This document shows, piece by piece, positions 2,296 to 58,096 of a DNA stretch of 64,000 bases (position 1 is the first letter of the stretch; every line of letters begins with the position of its first letter). The notes below the pieces were generated by a model. The model did no database searches. It was not told where the DNA came from and saw only the letters and a list, made by a program, of their open reading frames with translations. The DNA is taken from positions 2,728,001 to 2,792,000 of the forward strand of contig NZ_CP101458.1 in the NCBI RefSeq assembly GCF_024362525.1, written 5' to 3'. This DNA is from Natrononativus amylolyticus. Its GTDB lineage: Archaea; Halobacteriota; Halobacteria; Halobacteriales; Natrialbaceae. The position numbers and the translations under genes are program-made.

Positions 2296-3543
2296 ATGCG
2301 ACGAACGGTACTGGTCGTACTCGTCGCGGCGCTGGTCGCACTCGCCGGCTGTAGCGGCGAGACGGGTCCGGAGCCCGACAACGAGTCCGCGCCCGACGAC
2401 GCCGACGACCTCGAGTCCGCACACGCGGAAGCCGACGGTAACGGCGACGAGACCGACGACGGAGACGACGAGACGGCCGAAAGCGGCGACGAGACCGACG
2501 ACGGAGACGACGAGACGGCCGAAAGCGGCGACGAGACGGATTCACAGGAGGCGGACGACGACCGCGAGACCGACGAGGACGGTGACGGCGGGACGGATAC
2601 CGACGAGAGCGGGACGGACGACTCGAGCGCCGACGCCCACGCGGTCGACGGCGAACTCGAGATCCACCACATCGACGTCGGCCAGGCCGACGCCGCGCTG
2701 TTGATCGAGCCCTCGGGCGAGACCATGCTGATCGACACGGGCGACTGGCGGCAGGACGGCTCCGGCGTAATTTCCTCCCTCGAGGCCCAGGGCGTCGACC
2801 GGATCGACCACCTGGTGGCGACCCACGCCCACGCCGACCACATCGGCGGTCACGCCGCGGTGATCGAACACTACGAGACCGAGGGCGACGGCGTCGACGC
2901 GGCGTACGATTCCGGCGTGGCACACACCTCACAGACCTACGAGAGCTACCTCGACGCGGTCGAGGACCACGACGTCACCCTCTACGAGGTCCAGGAGGGC
3001 GACTCGGTCGCCTTCGGCGACGCGCACGTCGAGTTCTACAACCCGCCGGCGGGCGATTCGGGAACCGACCTCCACTACAACAGCGTCGCGCTCACCGTCG
3101 CGTTCGGCGAGGTGACCTACCTGACGACCGGCGACGCCGAGGACGGCGCGGAGGCGCGGATGGTCGACGCCTACGGCGACGACCTCGCCGCCGACGTCTA
3201 CCAGGCGGGCCACCACGGCTCCTCGACGAGTTCGACCGCGCCCTTCCTCGACGCAGTCGACCCCAGTGTGGCGGTGATCTCGAGCGCGTACGGCAGCCAG
3301 TACGGTCACCCCCACGACGAGGTGCTCGAGTCGTTCGGCGACCGCGGGATCGAAACCTACTGGACCGGCGTCCACGGCGCCGTGGTCGTGACGACCGACG
3401 GCGAGACGGTGGCGGTCGAACCCGCCAGTGAGGGGCCGACCGACGGCTCCGAGCTCATCGACGAGAAGCCTGCCGACGATGACGACACGGCCGCCCTGAT
3501 CCACCCGGCGGTTGATGTGACTGGCGCGCCTACGACCGGTTAA
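2296..3543 (+). CDS. Metallo-beta-lactamase-fold lipoprotein, ComEC C-terminal-domain-like
   Basis: A 415-residue protein. An N-terminal signal ends in a lipobox with Cys19 (LVALAGC), so it is probably a lipid-anchored extracytoplasmic enzyme. A linker of about 90 Asp/Glu/Ser/Thr residues follows, then a metallo-beta-lactamase fold: HIDVGQADAALL, the zinc motif THAHADH at about 176-182, then LTTGDAEDGAE and GHHGSSTSS. This order is that of the hydrolase domain of ComEC and its stand-alone relatives; substrates such as nucleic acids or phosphodiesters are inferred only. A GTG lies 9 nt upstream (2287), but ATG 2296 puts the signal peptide at the start. The stop overlaps the next start (TAATG). 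Confidence 0.9.
   Translation: MRRTVLVVLVAALVALAGCSGETGPEPDNESAPDDADDLESAHAEADGNGDETDDGDDETAESGDETDDGDDETAESGDETDSQEADDDRETDEDGDGGTDTDESGTDDSSADAHAVDGELEIHHIDVGQADAALLIEPSGETMLIDTGDWRQDGSGVISSLEAQGVDRIDHLVATHAHADHIGGHAAVIEHYETEGDGVDAAYDSGVAHTSQTYESYLDAVEDHDVTLYEVQEGDSVAFGDAHVEFYNPPAGDSGTDLHYNSVALTVAFGEVTYLTTGDAEDGAEARMVDAYGDDLAADVYQAGHHGSSTSSTAPFLDAVDPSVAVISSAYGSQYGHPHDEVLESFGDRGIETYWTGVHGAVVVTTDGETVAVEPASEGPTDGSELIDEKPADDDDTAALIHPAVDVTGAPTTG
2446..2529 (+). repeat. 42-bp perfect tandem repeat (two copies) in the lipoprotein linker
   Basis: Two identical 42-bp units at 2446-2487 and 2488-2529 encode the 14-residue block DETDDGDDETAESG twice, inside the acidic linker between lipobox and hydrolase domain. 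The identity suggests a recent in-frame expansion that changes linker length. Confidence 0.9.
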
Positions 3544-27007: not shown

Positions 27008-27502
27008 ATCGGAGAGAGAGCCCGGCCGCCGCGGCGGTGGCGTCGGCAACGGCGCCTCCGTACGACGTGGACCGTCCCTTCGGGACGCCCCACGCACACC
27101 GTTGTCCGACTCTCCGAGTCGCACAACGCACGCGAGGAAAGTCCCCCCACCGTTCGGGCGGGTGACCGGACGCAAGTCCGGAGCGGGAGACCGCTGGCTC
27201 TGGAACAGAAACGACACGTCTCGGCCCGATCGATGAGGCGAGCGAACCCGACCGCGAGGAAGGGGAGTTGACCCGCCGAGAGACGCACGACGAACGCGGT
27301 TCAACGCCGCGGATCGCGGGCGCGGTCTCCGACCGCGACCGGACGCGATCGACGTCGTCGACGGCCGAGGATCGATGGAACGGCGAACCCTCACCGGTGC
27401 AAGTCCGTCCCGCTGGTAGCCCGAACGCACCGCGGATTCCGCGGGCGGGGCGGACGCTCAGCCGAATGCCGGGATGAACAGAAGGGGGCTTACTCCTCTC
27501 AC
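27008..27502 (+). ncRNA. rnpB: RNase P RNA, archaeal type
   Basis: The universally conserved 5' motif GAGGAAAGTCC is at 27134-27144 and the 3' motif ACAGAAGGGGGCTTA at 27478-27492, about 350 nt apart, as expected for archaeal RNase P RNA. A GNRA-type hairpin CCGGAC-GCAA-GTCCGG follows the first motif (near 27160-27180). Potential P1 strands are GGAGAGAG near 27011 and CTCCTCTC after GGCTTA, which set the approximate ends; both ends are therefore uncertain by some 10-20 nt. The RNA matures tRNA 5' ends. Small reading frames across this stretch are accidental. Confidence 0.93.
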
Positions 27503-33418: not shown

Positions 33419-33625
33419 CTTCTGCTCGGAACTCACTCTCGCGAGGAGCGCTAGCGCCGAGCGAATTCGTACCGAGCAGAAGCAGGACAAACAGGCTCGA
33501 GCACGCGAGTCGCAGCCCGACACGAACGGAGCGAGTGTCCGGACCGTCTCGCACCTGTTCGAGTCCTGGCTTCGGCGCTTCTGCTCGGAACTCACTCCCG
33601 CGAGGAGCGCTAGCGCCGAGCGAAT
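33398..33625 (+). repeat. Tandem copies of the tRNA-Asn 3' tail with 69-bp identity block
   Basis: A 69-bp segment starting inside the tRNA T-arm (33398-33466) recurs at 33557-33625 with one substitution, 159 bp apart. It spans half a T-arm, the acceptor end, CTTCTGCTCGG and the palindrome GCGCTAGCGC. Between the copies CCGAGCAGAAG (33472-33482) is the exact complement of CTTCTGCTCGG (33419-33429), so the first unit folds. The second unit lacks the rest of a tRNA and is not a gene. Confidence 0.88.
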
Positions 33626-44706: not shown

Positions 44707-44781
44707 GGGCCCTTAGCTCAGTCTGGTTAGAGCGCTCGGCTCATAACCGAGTGGTCGATGGTTCGAATCCGTCAGGGCCCA
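44707..44781 (+). tRNA. tRNA with anticodon CAT (elongator Met or Ile2)
   Basis: A 75-nt cloverleaf. The acceptor GGGCCCT pairs with AGGGCCC, discriminator A; the anticodon stem CTCGG/CCGAG encloses CTCATAA (CAT); the T-arm sequence is GATGG-TTCGAAT-CCGTC. The G1-C72 start argues against initiator tRNA. Elongator Met and the agmatidine-modified Ile2 both carry CAT, and I cannot separate them here. Its last bases plus the following T (GGGCCCAT) are repeated at 47478-47485. Confidence 0.92.
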
Positions 44782-45358
44782 TCCAAATTCTGCACGGTTC
44801 TGAGCCAACGGAACCGAAGGGTACAACGCCAGTACCTCTTATTTTCGAGATCTCGGTGGTGATCGAACCGTGAGCCGTGTATGGAGTTCATCCAGCTGTT
44901 AGACGTGGGTCGCTGTCGTCGGGTCTTCTCTGATAACCGGTGTGCTGTGGACAGTTAATCAATCAGTGGTTGAGACGTGTTCGGACTAATTGTTCGCGCA
45001 TAGTAGAGTTTCAAATCTGGCTCTGTTGAAATTCTTAATGAGTGATAGGATTCGGCGACCGTGCTAAATACACAGCGCGACTGTGGCACGAGGCAAAGCC
45101 CGATCAGCGTGAAGGGTCGAATGCTCAGGACATAGCGTATACTGCTCACCAATTGGCCAACCAGCGGTACGTTGGTTCCCTGATCAGGCCGGACAGTCTT
45201 CTACCAAGTGAACCCGCGTGTTTATATCTCTAGTATGTGCTCCATACCTTCTGTTATCCGTCACATACTGTTTGGAGAATAGAATTTCAGCAGCCATTTT
45301 TTCGACTTGCTGATGCCAGCCGAAGTATACTGCCAGTAGGGATCAATGATATTAATTC

Positions 45359-46351
45359 ATGTCCAGTAAGCCAGACACGACGATCGCACACGGAGGGACG
45401 ACCAGACACGAAGAGAGAACGACCAGCGATGAGGAGAGATTGACTACTGAAGAGGGAAGATCTCGTCCCCGGGTAATTGATGTAATCACTCTCGTCGGCC
45501 TTGGGTACGTGCTCCGAGATTGGATTGGCCCAATAATCGAAAAGGTCCGTTCTGAGGGCAACGGCTCCTCAAAGCAGGGTCATGGAGTCACTAACACGGT
45601 CAAAAATTATACGGGGGGGATGACCCACGACGCGGCTGATCAAGTCCAGAAGGGTGGTCGAAAAGTAGCAGAAAAGACGGAGGAGACGACTGAGAACGTC
45701 GCCAATCGAATTAGAGAGACCAGCGAGGGACTCGGCGATCAGATCGAAGACGGAAGTAAACAGATCGGTGAGATGGTCGAAGAAAGTGGTGAAGAGGCGG
45801 GCGAGATGCTCAAAGAGGCGGGTGAGATGCTCGAAAAAGGTGGCGAGGAGACCGGCGAGATGCTCGAAGAAGGTGGTGAGGAGACAGCTGAGATGATCGA
45901 AGAAGGTGGTGAAGAAGCGGGCGATATGTTTGAAGAGAGCAGTGAGGAGACAGCTGAGATGATCGAAGAAAGTGGTGAAGAGGCGGGTGAGATGCTCGGA
46001 GAAGGCGGTGAGGAGATTGGCGAAATGTTCGGAGAAGGTGGTGAAGAGGCGGGTGAGATGCTCGGAGAAGGCGGTGAGGAGATTGGCGAAATGTTCGGAG
46101 AAGGTGGTGAAGAGGCGGGTGAGATGCTCGGAGAAGGCGGTGAGGAGATTGGCGAAATGTTCGGAGAAGGTGGTGAAGAAGTGGGCGATATGCTCGAAGA
46201 AGATGGTGAAGAAATGGGCGAAATGCTCGAAGAAGGAGAAGACGATGGTGGGGACACGAGAGAAAAGATGGGGGACGGCGGGAAAGTACCAGTCAAAACG
46301 ACTGATGAGGAAACAATAGTAGAACGTATCCGTCAGACTCTATTAAAATAG
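45359..46351 (+). CDS. Hendecad (11-residue) repeat protein with possible membrane segment
   Basis: A 330-residue protein. Residues ~1-38 are polar; 39-62 (IDVITLVGLGYVLRDWIGPI) could associate with or cross the membrane. From about 130 to 305 it consists of some fifteen 11-residue repeats of the type EMLEEGGEETG, with hydrophobic Met-Leu/Phe/Ile at fixed positions and Glu/Gly elsewhere. Eleven-residue periodicity is that of right-handed coiled coils and LEA-3-like amphipathic helices. Codon choice (gaa, ggt, atg) and GC are unlike the surrounding core genes. Stress protection or membrane-surface scaffolding are possibilities; the function is not known. Confidence 0.8.
   Translation: MSSKPDTTIAHGGTTRHEERTTSDEERLTTEEGRSRPRVIDVITLVGLGYVLRDWIGPIIEKVRSEGNGSSKQGHGVTNTVKNYTGGMTHDAADQVQKGGRKVAEKTEETTENVANRIRETSEGLGDQIEDGSKQIGEMVEESGEEAGEMLKEAGEMLEKGGEETGEMLEEGGEETAEMIEEGGEEAGDMFEESSEETAEMIEESGEEAGEMLGEGGEEIGEMFGEGGEEAGEMLGEGGEEIGEMFGEGGEEAGEMLGEGGEEIGEMFGEGGEEVGDMLEEDGEEMGEMLEEGEDDGGDTREKMGDGGKVPVKTTDEETIVERIRQTLLK
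45980..46177 (+). repeat. 66-bp tandem repeat, three near-identical copies
   Basis: Units starting at 45980, 46046 and 46112 are almost base-for-base identical and each encodes two hendecads (AGEMLGEGGEE and IGEMFGEGGEE). Diverged 33-bp half-units flank them on both sides (about 45750-46260). The identity shows recent expansion by unequal crossing-over or slippage. Confidence 0.9.
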
Positions 46352-46612
46352 GAAACTCCCGAGATGTCGATATTGAATGTGCGCAGTAAGCATATCTACT
46401 GAACGGCCGATTCATTGACTTCGCCGTGAAACAAACAAAGTCGTTGTGCTGCACTAATCCTCTGGATGTTGCAAGCGCTTTCTACCAACTGTTGGATAGG
46501 TTGAACGAGGCCTACGAGATACAGGGCGCAAATGTGACACTCTGTCGACTCACTTACGACTATTGTCGCTCTTCCTTGAGGACGGGAGTGTAGCGCTGTA
46601 TCGCCCTCTTTT

Positions 46613-47038
46613 TCAGCTATCCGGAAGGCGGCCAGGACTGCCGATCTGCGCGAGCAAGGGTGCCGATAGCGCGATTATCGCCAGAACGAGCGTCATGGCC
46701 GTAAAACGCAGTCGCCTGTCGTACTCGTCCGGATCGTTGGGGTCGACGATAACCAGCACAACAACGTGTGTTAGTATTCCCATCGGAGATCGGACGGTCG
46801 GCTGGTCGGCGTCTCGCGGCAGTTTTCGGAGTTGCCACGCCGACCAAACGGTATACCCGAACAGCGAGACTGTGATTCCGACCCACGACGCGGTAACCGC
46901 AGCTATCCCGACCGTCCCACCTCCCTCCGGAACCAGCATCAGGTAGGTTCCGAATCCAATCACTGACAGGAACAGAAAGCCAATGGAGGCTGCAAAGAGC
47001 GCTCCGAATGCTTCTCCAGGCGTGTCTGGAGAAAGCAA
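46613..47038 (-). CDS. Membrane protein with four helices, hypothetical
   Basis: About 141 residues from a TTG at 47038 (MLSPDTPGEAFGALFAASIG), with hydrophobic helices at about 10-35, 40-65, 85-103 and 112-130 and a cytoplasmic-type basic loop (WQLRKLPRDADQ). The frame stays open further upstream, but that part overlaps the PIN remnant on the opposite strand and looks like shadow, so the exact start is uncertain. The family is not recognised. It lies inside the tRNA-associated islet. Confidence 0.6.
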   Translation of the reverse strand: MLSPDTPGEAFGALFAASIGFLFLSVIGFGTYLMLVPEGGGTVGIAAVTASWVGITVSLFGYTVWSAWQLRKLPRDADQPTVRSPMGILTHVVVLVIVDPNDPDEYDRRLRFTAMTLVLAIIALSAPLLAQIGSPGRLPDS

Positions 47039-47110
47039 CCTATCGACACTAACATGAACGCTCCCAGAGCTACCGTTTGATTGTCCCTGCTGATCGTGGA
47101 GAAATCCGGA

Positions 47111-47413
47111 ATGGAACCAGATCGAGTGGCACAGTTCCTCGACCTCCTGTTTCAGTACATTGAGGTCGTCTCTGCCAGTGACTTTTATCCGGCTATCGAG
47201 ACAGCGGACGCAGCAATCGGAGACACCGACCCCGACGATGTGCTGTACCTCGCGTGTGCGATCGCCAGCGATGCTGCCACCTGGAGCGACGATCCTGACT
47301 TCGACAAACAGGACCTGGTCGATACGTACTCGAGGAGTGACGTGATCAACTCGTTTGACGCGCTCCAATCGGCGGACCAGTCCTCAGTTCTACCCGTGCA
47401 CACGCAGAGATGA
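47111..47413 (+). pseudogene. PIN-domain (VapC-like) toxin remnant, N-terminus missing
   Basis: The frame encodes only the C-terminal two thirds of a PIN nuclease: VAQFLDLLFQYIEVVSASDF, then DPDDVLYLACAIASDAATWS, DDPDFDKQDLV and TYSRSDVI. The segment with DD-LYLACAIA and TWSDDPDF is the second acidic cluster of the PIN active site. The first conserved aspartate and the preceding ~50 residues are absent, and no antitoxin is adjacent. It is therefore probably a dead relic at the right end of the islet. An in-frame codon at 47081 exists but does not restore the domain. Confidence 0.7.
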
Positions 47414-47477
47414 CTGATCGCCACTATACAGCGCCCCAAGTGGGTCAGTATAGGCATTCGAGGGAATGCGTACAGTT

Positions 47478-47601
47478 GGGCCCATGAAACCCGCGAGCGA
47501 CAGCGAGCGGTGTTGAACGAACCGCTGCCGGTTTGAACCAGACCAGTCGCGCGCAGCGAAGCGAGCACGCCTGGGCGTGGTTCATAATCCGGCAGGGTCC
47601 G
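47478..47601 (+). repeat. Displaced tRNA-tail hairpin module (matches tRNA CAT)
   Basis: The module starts with GGGCCCAT, identical to the end of the tRNA at 44707. Further on, GAACCAGACCA (from 47535) and CTGGGCGTGGTTC (47571-47583) form an inverted repeat around GCGCAGCGAAGCGAGCACGC, then GGTTCATAATCCGGCAGGGTCCG (split here for reading: 47579-47601) resembles the T-arm and acceptor of the same tRNA. It has the same order as the module after tRNA-Phe. Confidence 0.75.
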
Positions 47602-47675
47602 TAGCGAGGCTCGCGTTCGCTCACCTCGAGACGCCGGACGGACGGATTCAACTGACCGCGGCCCGTACGATTCCT

Positions 47676-48380: not shown

Positions 48381-48505
48381 GGCGCGAGTACAGTGTCAGC
48401 GGGTGTATAACTTCGGATCGTCGGGATCGATTGAGGATTCCCCCGAGAGCACCAGGGCCATCGTCGAATAGTATCGTTTACTACAGTCGCTCGAGAAGGA
48501 CGACC

Positions 48506-56967: not shown

Positions 56968-56972
56968 CTGTT

Positions 56973-57113
56973 GCTGTCGCGAACAAGTACGTGAGCGACA
57001 GCGCCGTGATGCGAGTGGCGGGTTCGAAGTAGAGAAGTCGCAGCCCGCGAAGCCGAGCGAAACGAGGCGAGCGGGACCGTCTTCGCGTAGTTCGAACCCG
57101 CCCGAGCCTACTA
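56973..57113 (+). repeat. tRNA-Val tail hairpin module
   Basis: Hairpin A: GCTGTCGC (56973-56980) and GCGACAGC (56995-57002). Hairpin B: GCGGGTTCGAA (57018-57028), the inverted T-arm of the tRNA, opposite TTCGAACCCGC (57091-57101), the direct T-arm copy that continues CCGAGCCTA like the tRNA end. The loop is rich in GAGCGAAACGAGGCGAGC. No other tRNA parts are present, so this is not a second gene. Confidence 0.82.
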
Positions 57114-57920: not shown

Positions 57921-57954
57921 TTTTTCTGCGAACAACGTGAGCAGTGAAAATGCT

Positions 57955-58096
57955 CCCGCCCGGATTTGAACTAGACCGAGGTTCTGCGAGCGAAGCGAGC
58001 AGGTTCTCGGGCGTAGTTCATAATCCGGGAGGCGGTATCCGGATTTTACGCGACTCTCACTCGAGAAGTTACCGGACTCGACTGAAGGTCGAGCTG
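57955..58096 (+). repeat. tRNA-Phe tail module with an anticodon-arm copy
   Basis: CCCGCCCGGATTTGAAC (57955-57971) is an inverted T-arm copy; GCGAGCGAAGCGAGC (57986-58000) is the core; GTTCATAATCCGGGAGGCGG (58016-58035) is a direct copy of T-arm plus acceptor. Forty bases further, ACTCGACTGAAGGTCGAGCTG (58076-58096) matches the tRNA anticodon arm at 20 of 21 positions. The order of parts is scrambled relative to a tRNA. Confidence 0.85.

Follow-up and report, generated by a model that had tools for sequence, protein, structure and literature searches.

The Betapleolipovirus SNJ2 of haloarchaea has an att site of 13 bp at a tRNA 3′ end, and integrated haloarchaeal elements are often devoid of an integrase, which has presumably been lost (PMC8371274). 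In Haloquadratum, partial tRNA duplications are located beside prophages, the tRNA 3′ end being repeated through prophage integration (PMC3119063). Islander-type islands, which are borne by tRNA genes, provide a further point of comparison (PMC4383910).

The locus described here is part of a stretch of 64,000 nucleotides, C1:2728001-2792000 of genome G000 (3.99 Mb, 3 contigs), which was analysed as a whole and is referred to as the window. The source is a haloarchaeon, and both DNA and protein similarity place its relatives in the Natrialbaceae. An intact tRNA-Met gene lies at the 5′ side, an islet of low G+C content is inserted at its 3′ end, and a hairpin module (47486-47602) that resembles the same tRNA end follows. 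The islet is very probably the remnant of an integrative, plasmid-like element that was inserted exactly at the tRNA-Met end and thereby displaced the module. The features of the locus are as follows, in window coordinates.

44707-44781, plus strand: tRNA-Met (CAT), intact (ARAGORN; Rfam RF00005, 70.9 bits)
44769-44782, plus strand: left att core CCGTCAGGGCCCAT, overlapping the tRNA 3′ end
44783-47477, no strand assigned: islet of 2,695 bp, very probably a decayed integrative element, defined by composition and missing from empty sites
44783-44986, no strand assigned: element left end (CCAAATTCTGCACGGTTCTGAGCC...)
45060-46462, plus strand: plasmid-derived block, sharing ~81% identity with a plasmid of Halostagnicola larsenii
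45359-46351, plus strand: open frame for a 330-aa protein with 33-bp units and apolipoprotein-like amphipathic repeats (PF01442)
47081-47413, plus strand: PIN_2 toxin gene fragment (PF10130, E=1.4e-17), without its N-terminal part and partner gene
47478-47485, plus strand: right att remnant GGGCCCAT, equal to the old tRNA/module junction and matching GGGCCCATG, the module start in empty sites
47486-47514, plus strand: module hairpin 1, with a homologue in the tRNA-Met module of Natribaculum breve and predicted by RNA folding
47519-47540, plus strand: module inverted copy of the tRNA 3′ end, its T-arm part best kept, seen in the fold and by a covariance model
47541-47576, plus strand: module hairpin 2 core, from the fold (CCAGACCAGTCGCGCGCAG..., also in G027)
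47579-47600, plus strand: module direct copy of the tRNA-Met 3′ end, by pattern match

An earlier note, made from the sequence alone, had described a 2.7-kb segment of lower G+C content lacking a visible integrase, and had read it as the product of site-specific integration at the tRNA 3′ end that displaced the module. The segment is real and its bounds could be refined to those listed above: the islet proper has 53.1% G+C compared with 68.0% in the rest of the window (z ~-5.8 against 2.7-kb windows). The tRNA-Met copy in the window has no intron, while in several relatives (L142, L154, L140, L090) the elongator tRNA-Met carries one after the anticodon. Elsewhere in the window the RNase P RNA (27103-27495) measures 393 bases, of which the Rfam model matches 270 positions, and this excess length suggests extra helices.

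The repeat of the tRNA end to which the note had drawn attention, the 8-mer GGGCCCAT, is indeed present at both islet borders (44775-44782 and 47478-47485), but by itself it does not rise above chance, as 21 of 100 shuffled versions of the window contain it at least twice; it was therefore dropped as sole proof of integration. The core comprises 14 bp at the left border, eight of which are kept at the right. Reverse-complemented, CCGTCAGGGCCCAT equals the opening 14 bases of SNJ2 record OP012469, and it recurs at the right-hand junction of the G093 and G095 elements.

The empty site that the note had suggested looking for, a tRNA end fused to the module, is present in relatives. The family set of 125 genomes holds no second species of the window's genus. 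In Natribaculum breve TRM20010 (L166), tRNA-Met directly joins GGGCCCATGGAACCTGCGAGCGACAGCGAGCAGTGT..., the orthologue of the module in the window. Once the islet is removed in silico, the window shares 84.6% identity with N. breve in a 65-bp alignment that spans the junction of tRNA and module (E=8.5e-13), and farther downstream a block of about 3 kb from window position 48459 is syntenic (76%). A fusion of this kind also occurs in a Natrialbaceae MAG (L161), Halovivax sp. KZCA124 (L157), Natronococcus sp. A-GB1 (L162) and Natronococcus amylolyticus (L164), as well as in genomes G008, G024, G027, G056, G087, G089 and G092, although some of these genomes and the named loci look like one genome listed twice. 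The precise empty-site junction predicted for the locus of the window is GGTTCGAATCCGTCAGGGCCCATGAAACCC.

Among filled sites, Natronococcus sp. A-GB7 (G093/L163) has the layout of the window, with the tRNA, a 6.6-kb element, the att copy CCGTCAGGGCCCATG and the module in this order. The G095 element at tRNA-Met, apparently two elements in tandem, has an ORF of 115 aa and a complete PIN_2 gene on its left and encodes a tyrosine integrase on its right (PF00589, E=7e-13; 45% identity to the SNJ2 integrase), followed by the att copy CCGTCAGGGCCCATG. In G088 a 5.2-kb insert precedes the module. None of the relatives read carries the gene content of the islet between tRNA and module, an arrangement that the earlier note had regarded as speaking against integration.

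The left end of the islet, directly 3′ of the core, is the end of a recurrent element. The same end follows tRNA-Met in G058 and G073, with 84-89% identity over 280 and 163 bp, tRNA included. It also matches, with 81% identity over 200 bp, an att-like copy on a 508-kb plasmid of Natrinema zhouii (L104), where the only tRNA-Met detected near the core copy is degenerate. This plasmid tRNA-Met (L104, ~3285-3383, minus strand) bears an intron, has a broken acceptor end and lies about 2.7 kb from the oppositely oriented att-like copy. On the N. zhouii chromosome an element that aligns with the first ~45 bp of the islet left end lies behind the tRNA-end copy in the module rather than behind the tRNA.

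The block at 45060-46462 has further relatives on Halomontanus, Natronosalvus and Natrinema plasmids. The 330-aa repeat protein within it matches PF01442 with E=7e-15, which is below the curated cut-off, and its N-terminal 114 aa have homologues in only 12 of the 125 family genomes, its own included. The gene contains an in-frame array of about a dozen 33-bp repeats (45747-46320) that varies in length among relatives. The PIN_2 frame covers only positions 46-116 of the PF10130 profile, so the N-terminal part is missing; its relative in G095 is full length and preceded by the 115-aa ORF. A 155-aa frame on the minus strand (46613-47080) has neither a Pfam match nor a plasmid relative and thus may not be a gene. 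The right part of the islet is homologous to G093, G095, G094 and a Natronorubrum aibiense plasmid. This homology ends at ~47471, just before the att remnant, as would be expected if a deletion had fused internal DNA to the right border, and the right end of the islet has no arm in common with those of the G093 and G095 elements. This and the short right att copy (8 bp) speak against the integration put forward below.

In agreement with the earlier note, no integrase domain was detected among the islet ORFs tested against Pfam, and none of the integrase matches listed for G000 (7 of 9) falls inside the window. The islet ORFs match Pfam only in the PIN_2 and apolipoprotein-like repeat families, with no viral gene recognised. 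A phage origin by direct DNA similarity was also considered and set aside, as the listed hits consisted of tRNA matches to unrelated phages alone.

Overall, the locus displays an intact tRNA at the insertion, an empty site in relatives and a recurrent element end with an extrachromosomal att-like copy, as is typical of integrative elements, and is missing an integrase of its own; hence the islet is named a decayed remnant. The site specificity of the event is supported by the 14-bp core in common with SNJ2, the homology of the element end in other genera and the A-GB7 layout. Together with the empty sites, these uphold the integration proposed in the earlier note, even if the 8-bp repeat is weak evidence alone and the islet is not a whole element. 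It is proposed that an SNJ2-family tyrosine integrase recombined attP with the tRNA-Met 3′ end, which would have rebuilt the tRNA on the left and kept the former boundary between tRNA and module, GGGCCCATG, on the right, with the module now 2.7 kb farther off. The module would in this case be an older, vertically inherited structure that was present before the islet. Later deletion, possibly with more insertions at this hot spot, would then have taken away the integrase and most of the cargo, as a consequence of which the element would be unable to excise by itself.

The strongest competitor of a single integration is a patchwork that never was one element but was built up by repeated insertion and deletion where integration is frequent, a reading with nearly an even chance of being correct. 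The nearest relatives differ between the left part (G058/G073), the middle (H. larsenii and other plasmids) and the right part (G093/G095/G094/N. aibiense), and G095 has an apparent tandem of two elements at this tRNA; on the other hand, the islet ends still fit one att pair and a plasmid-like composition runs through all of its parts. Since its parts resemble different elements, one integration followed by decay and serial insertions are indistinguishable, and the islet is probably a composite, decayed remnant and not a complete element. Arrival by homologous or illegitimate recombination with a coincidental 8-bp repeat, which would suit the chance level of the 8-mer and the absent integrase, is highly improbable given that the right border coincides precisely with the junction of tRNA and module in empty sites and that on the left an element end known from other insertions stands immediately after the att core. 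In itself the islet, as the remnant of an integrated element, is ordinary, being one more decayed island at a much-used att site. The locus matters because it exposes the module, a tRNA-matching hairpin that is present in nearly all of the sampled haloarchaea.

The module comprises hairpin 1, an inverted tRNA 3′ end, hairpin 2 and a direct tRNA 3′ end, in this order after the tRNA, and this anatomy applies to the modules of G000 in general. Hairpin 1 has a stem of 8-10 bp with a GA/GA internal loop in most of them. The resemblance to the tRNA noticed earlier is real, as chance would yield the 22-base tRNA-end-like string GGTTCATAATCCGGCAGGGTCC (47579-47600) only 0.01 times. The note had also likened this module to that following tRNA-Phe, and a single covariance model, R1, in fact finds the Met (47528-47590, E=7.5e-7), Phe (57961-58026, E=1.2e-11) and Val (57019-57100, E=0.0027) modules of the window, the first two of which were in its building set. 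The modules after tRNA-Val(TAC) (56969-57112) and tRNA-Phe(GAA) (57921-58040) each carry the 3′ end of their own tRNA. A long module follows tRNA-Asn (33420-33578); its direct copy lies at +137 and it appears to be a tandem with a repeat of the first hairpin.

A strong direct copy of the own 3′ end (local score of at least 17) is located downstream of 20 of the 44 tRNA genes tested in G000, where upstream controls reach a maximum of 11 and shuffles of 15. As for modules without an apparent tRNA in this genome, one pair sits behind tRNA genes missed by ARAGORN, while the degenerate hits C1:544330 and C1:551481 have no clear tRNA on the same strand. The displaced module of the window fits its tRNA less well than most modules do, as if keeping in step required proximity; this is a single case, and the non-displaced Phe and Lys-CTT modules show similar loop changes.

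R1 contains a 13-bp arm helix in which 10 of 13 pairs have changed on both sides, and it has matches in 376 of the 391 Halobacteria genomes searched and in 85 of the 86 genera (E<=0.1). In a phylum-wide sample of 148 genomes searched at E<=0.001, 21 match, all of them Halobacteriales, and the other genomes of the sample have no match. Outside G000, ARAGORN places a tRNA close by on the same strand at 26 of the 29 best-scoring loci. The other three, in three other genomes, at first seemed to be modules without a tRNA, which was rejected when an intron-bearing tRNA-Arg(TCT) missed by ARAGORN was recognised ahead of each. Apart from L110 and L135, the modules at these 26 loci fit their own tRNA clearly better than they fit unrelated ones. 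Rfam has no family for the module at gathering score, and mir-239 and sR10, weak matches far below the cut-offs, were discarded. No published description of such modules was found, literature coverage being incomplete.

The favoured interpretation of the module is that of a structured RNA trailer that doubles as a secondary att site; the inserts on the N. zhouii chromosome and in G088 show that its tRNA copy can be used in this way. More specifically, the modules could form a haloarchaea-wide, undescribed class in which inverted and direct copies of the own tRNA surround a conserved stem, are actively kept in register, fold as a pre-tRNA trailer and offer a spare att site that takes elements instead of the tRNA; as a whole this proposal is tentative and rather doubtful. 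Equally tentative is the idea that the modules are passive debris, relic att copies of ancient integrations that became palindromes by hairpin-templated mutation. The copied stretch runs from the T-loop to the 3′ end, where the att sites of tRNA genes usually lie, copies are also seen in tandem and elements use the module's copy as att too, all of which suits debris, whereas a fold conserved in 376 of 391 genomes does not. Moreover, modules of the long-stem class have an inner helix that is not derived from the tRNA. Pairing in this helix is complete (100%), both partners have changed at three pairs, and one G-U pair recurs in each of the 19 sequences, which favours a selected RNA structure; as all sequences were chosen with a model of the same structure, the degree of pairing is inflated, whereas the two-sided changes are less affected. 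The G-U pairs are kept on the tRNA strand and so argue for an RNA structure that is read in the direction of the tRNA. That the islet and the hairpin form a cassette, comparable to a gene cassette with its attC site, might be suggested by the module at the islet 3′ end and by the module after the G088 insert, but is most unlikely as modules adjoin tRNA-Met without cargo in many genera, the module of the window is orthologous to that of N. breve and the att-core remnants lie 5′ of the module, not 3′. If the module is functional, it bears on archaeal tRNA 3′ processing or on the way in which haloarchaea accommodate integrating viruses and plasmids, and the empty and filled sites named above make both ideas testable.

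SNJ2 shares with the islet the same 14-bp core CCGTCAGGGCCCAT at the tRNA-Met 3′ end, and SNJ2-family integrases are represented at tRNA-Met by that of the related G095 element. The islet differs from SNJ2 in the absence of an integrase or recognised viral gene, in its end sequence and in a body that resembles megaplasmid DNA; of the Pleolipoviridae traits it has the SNJ2 att core at tRNA-Met, while Pfam detects neither structural genes nor an integrase. After tRNA-Met in seven other genomes (L139, L141, L143, L150, L158, L170, L174) the sequence reads CATCCGC...CCGAAGTGTGGCCG..., like the SNJ2 end abutting its core, and SNJ2-like proviruses or their remnants therefore look frequent. Integron attC sites present their recombination core as an imperfect inverted repeat with a variable tip. 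The module can be likened to them by analogy, as it too is an imperfect inverted repeat with a variable tip. MITEs have terminal inverted repeats that are common to all copies and independent of the site, whereas the arms of each module match its own tRNA. Like Islander-type islands (PMC4383910), the islet has an intact tRNA on one side, a displaced target fragment on the other, foreign composition and relatives with an empty site. It departs from them in that its fragment is very short (8 bp) and in that it interrupts a unit of tRNA and hairpin, where it has pushed aside a second and independent tRNA-end copy. Finally, the partial tRNA duplications of Haloquadratum resemble the modules in repeating a tRNA 3′ end, whereas the modules measure about 100-150 bp, follow roughly half of the tRNA genes and combine an inverted copy with two hairpins.
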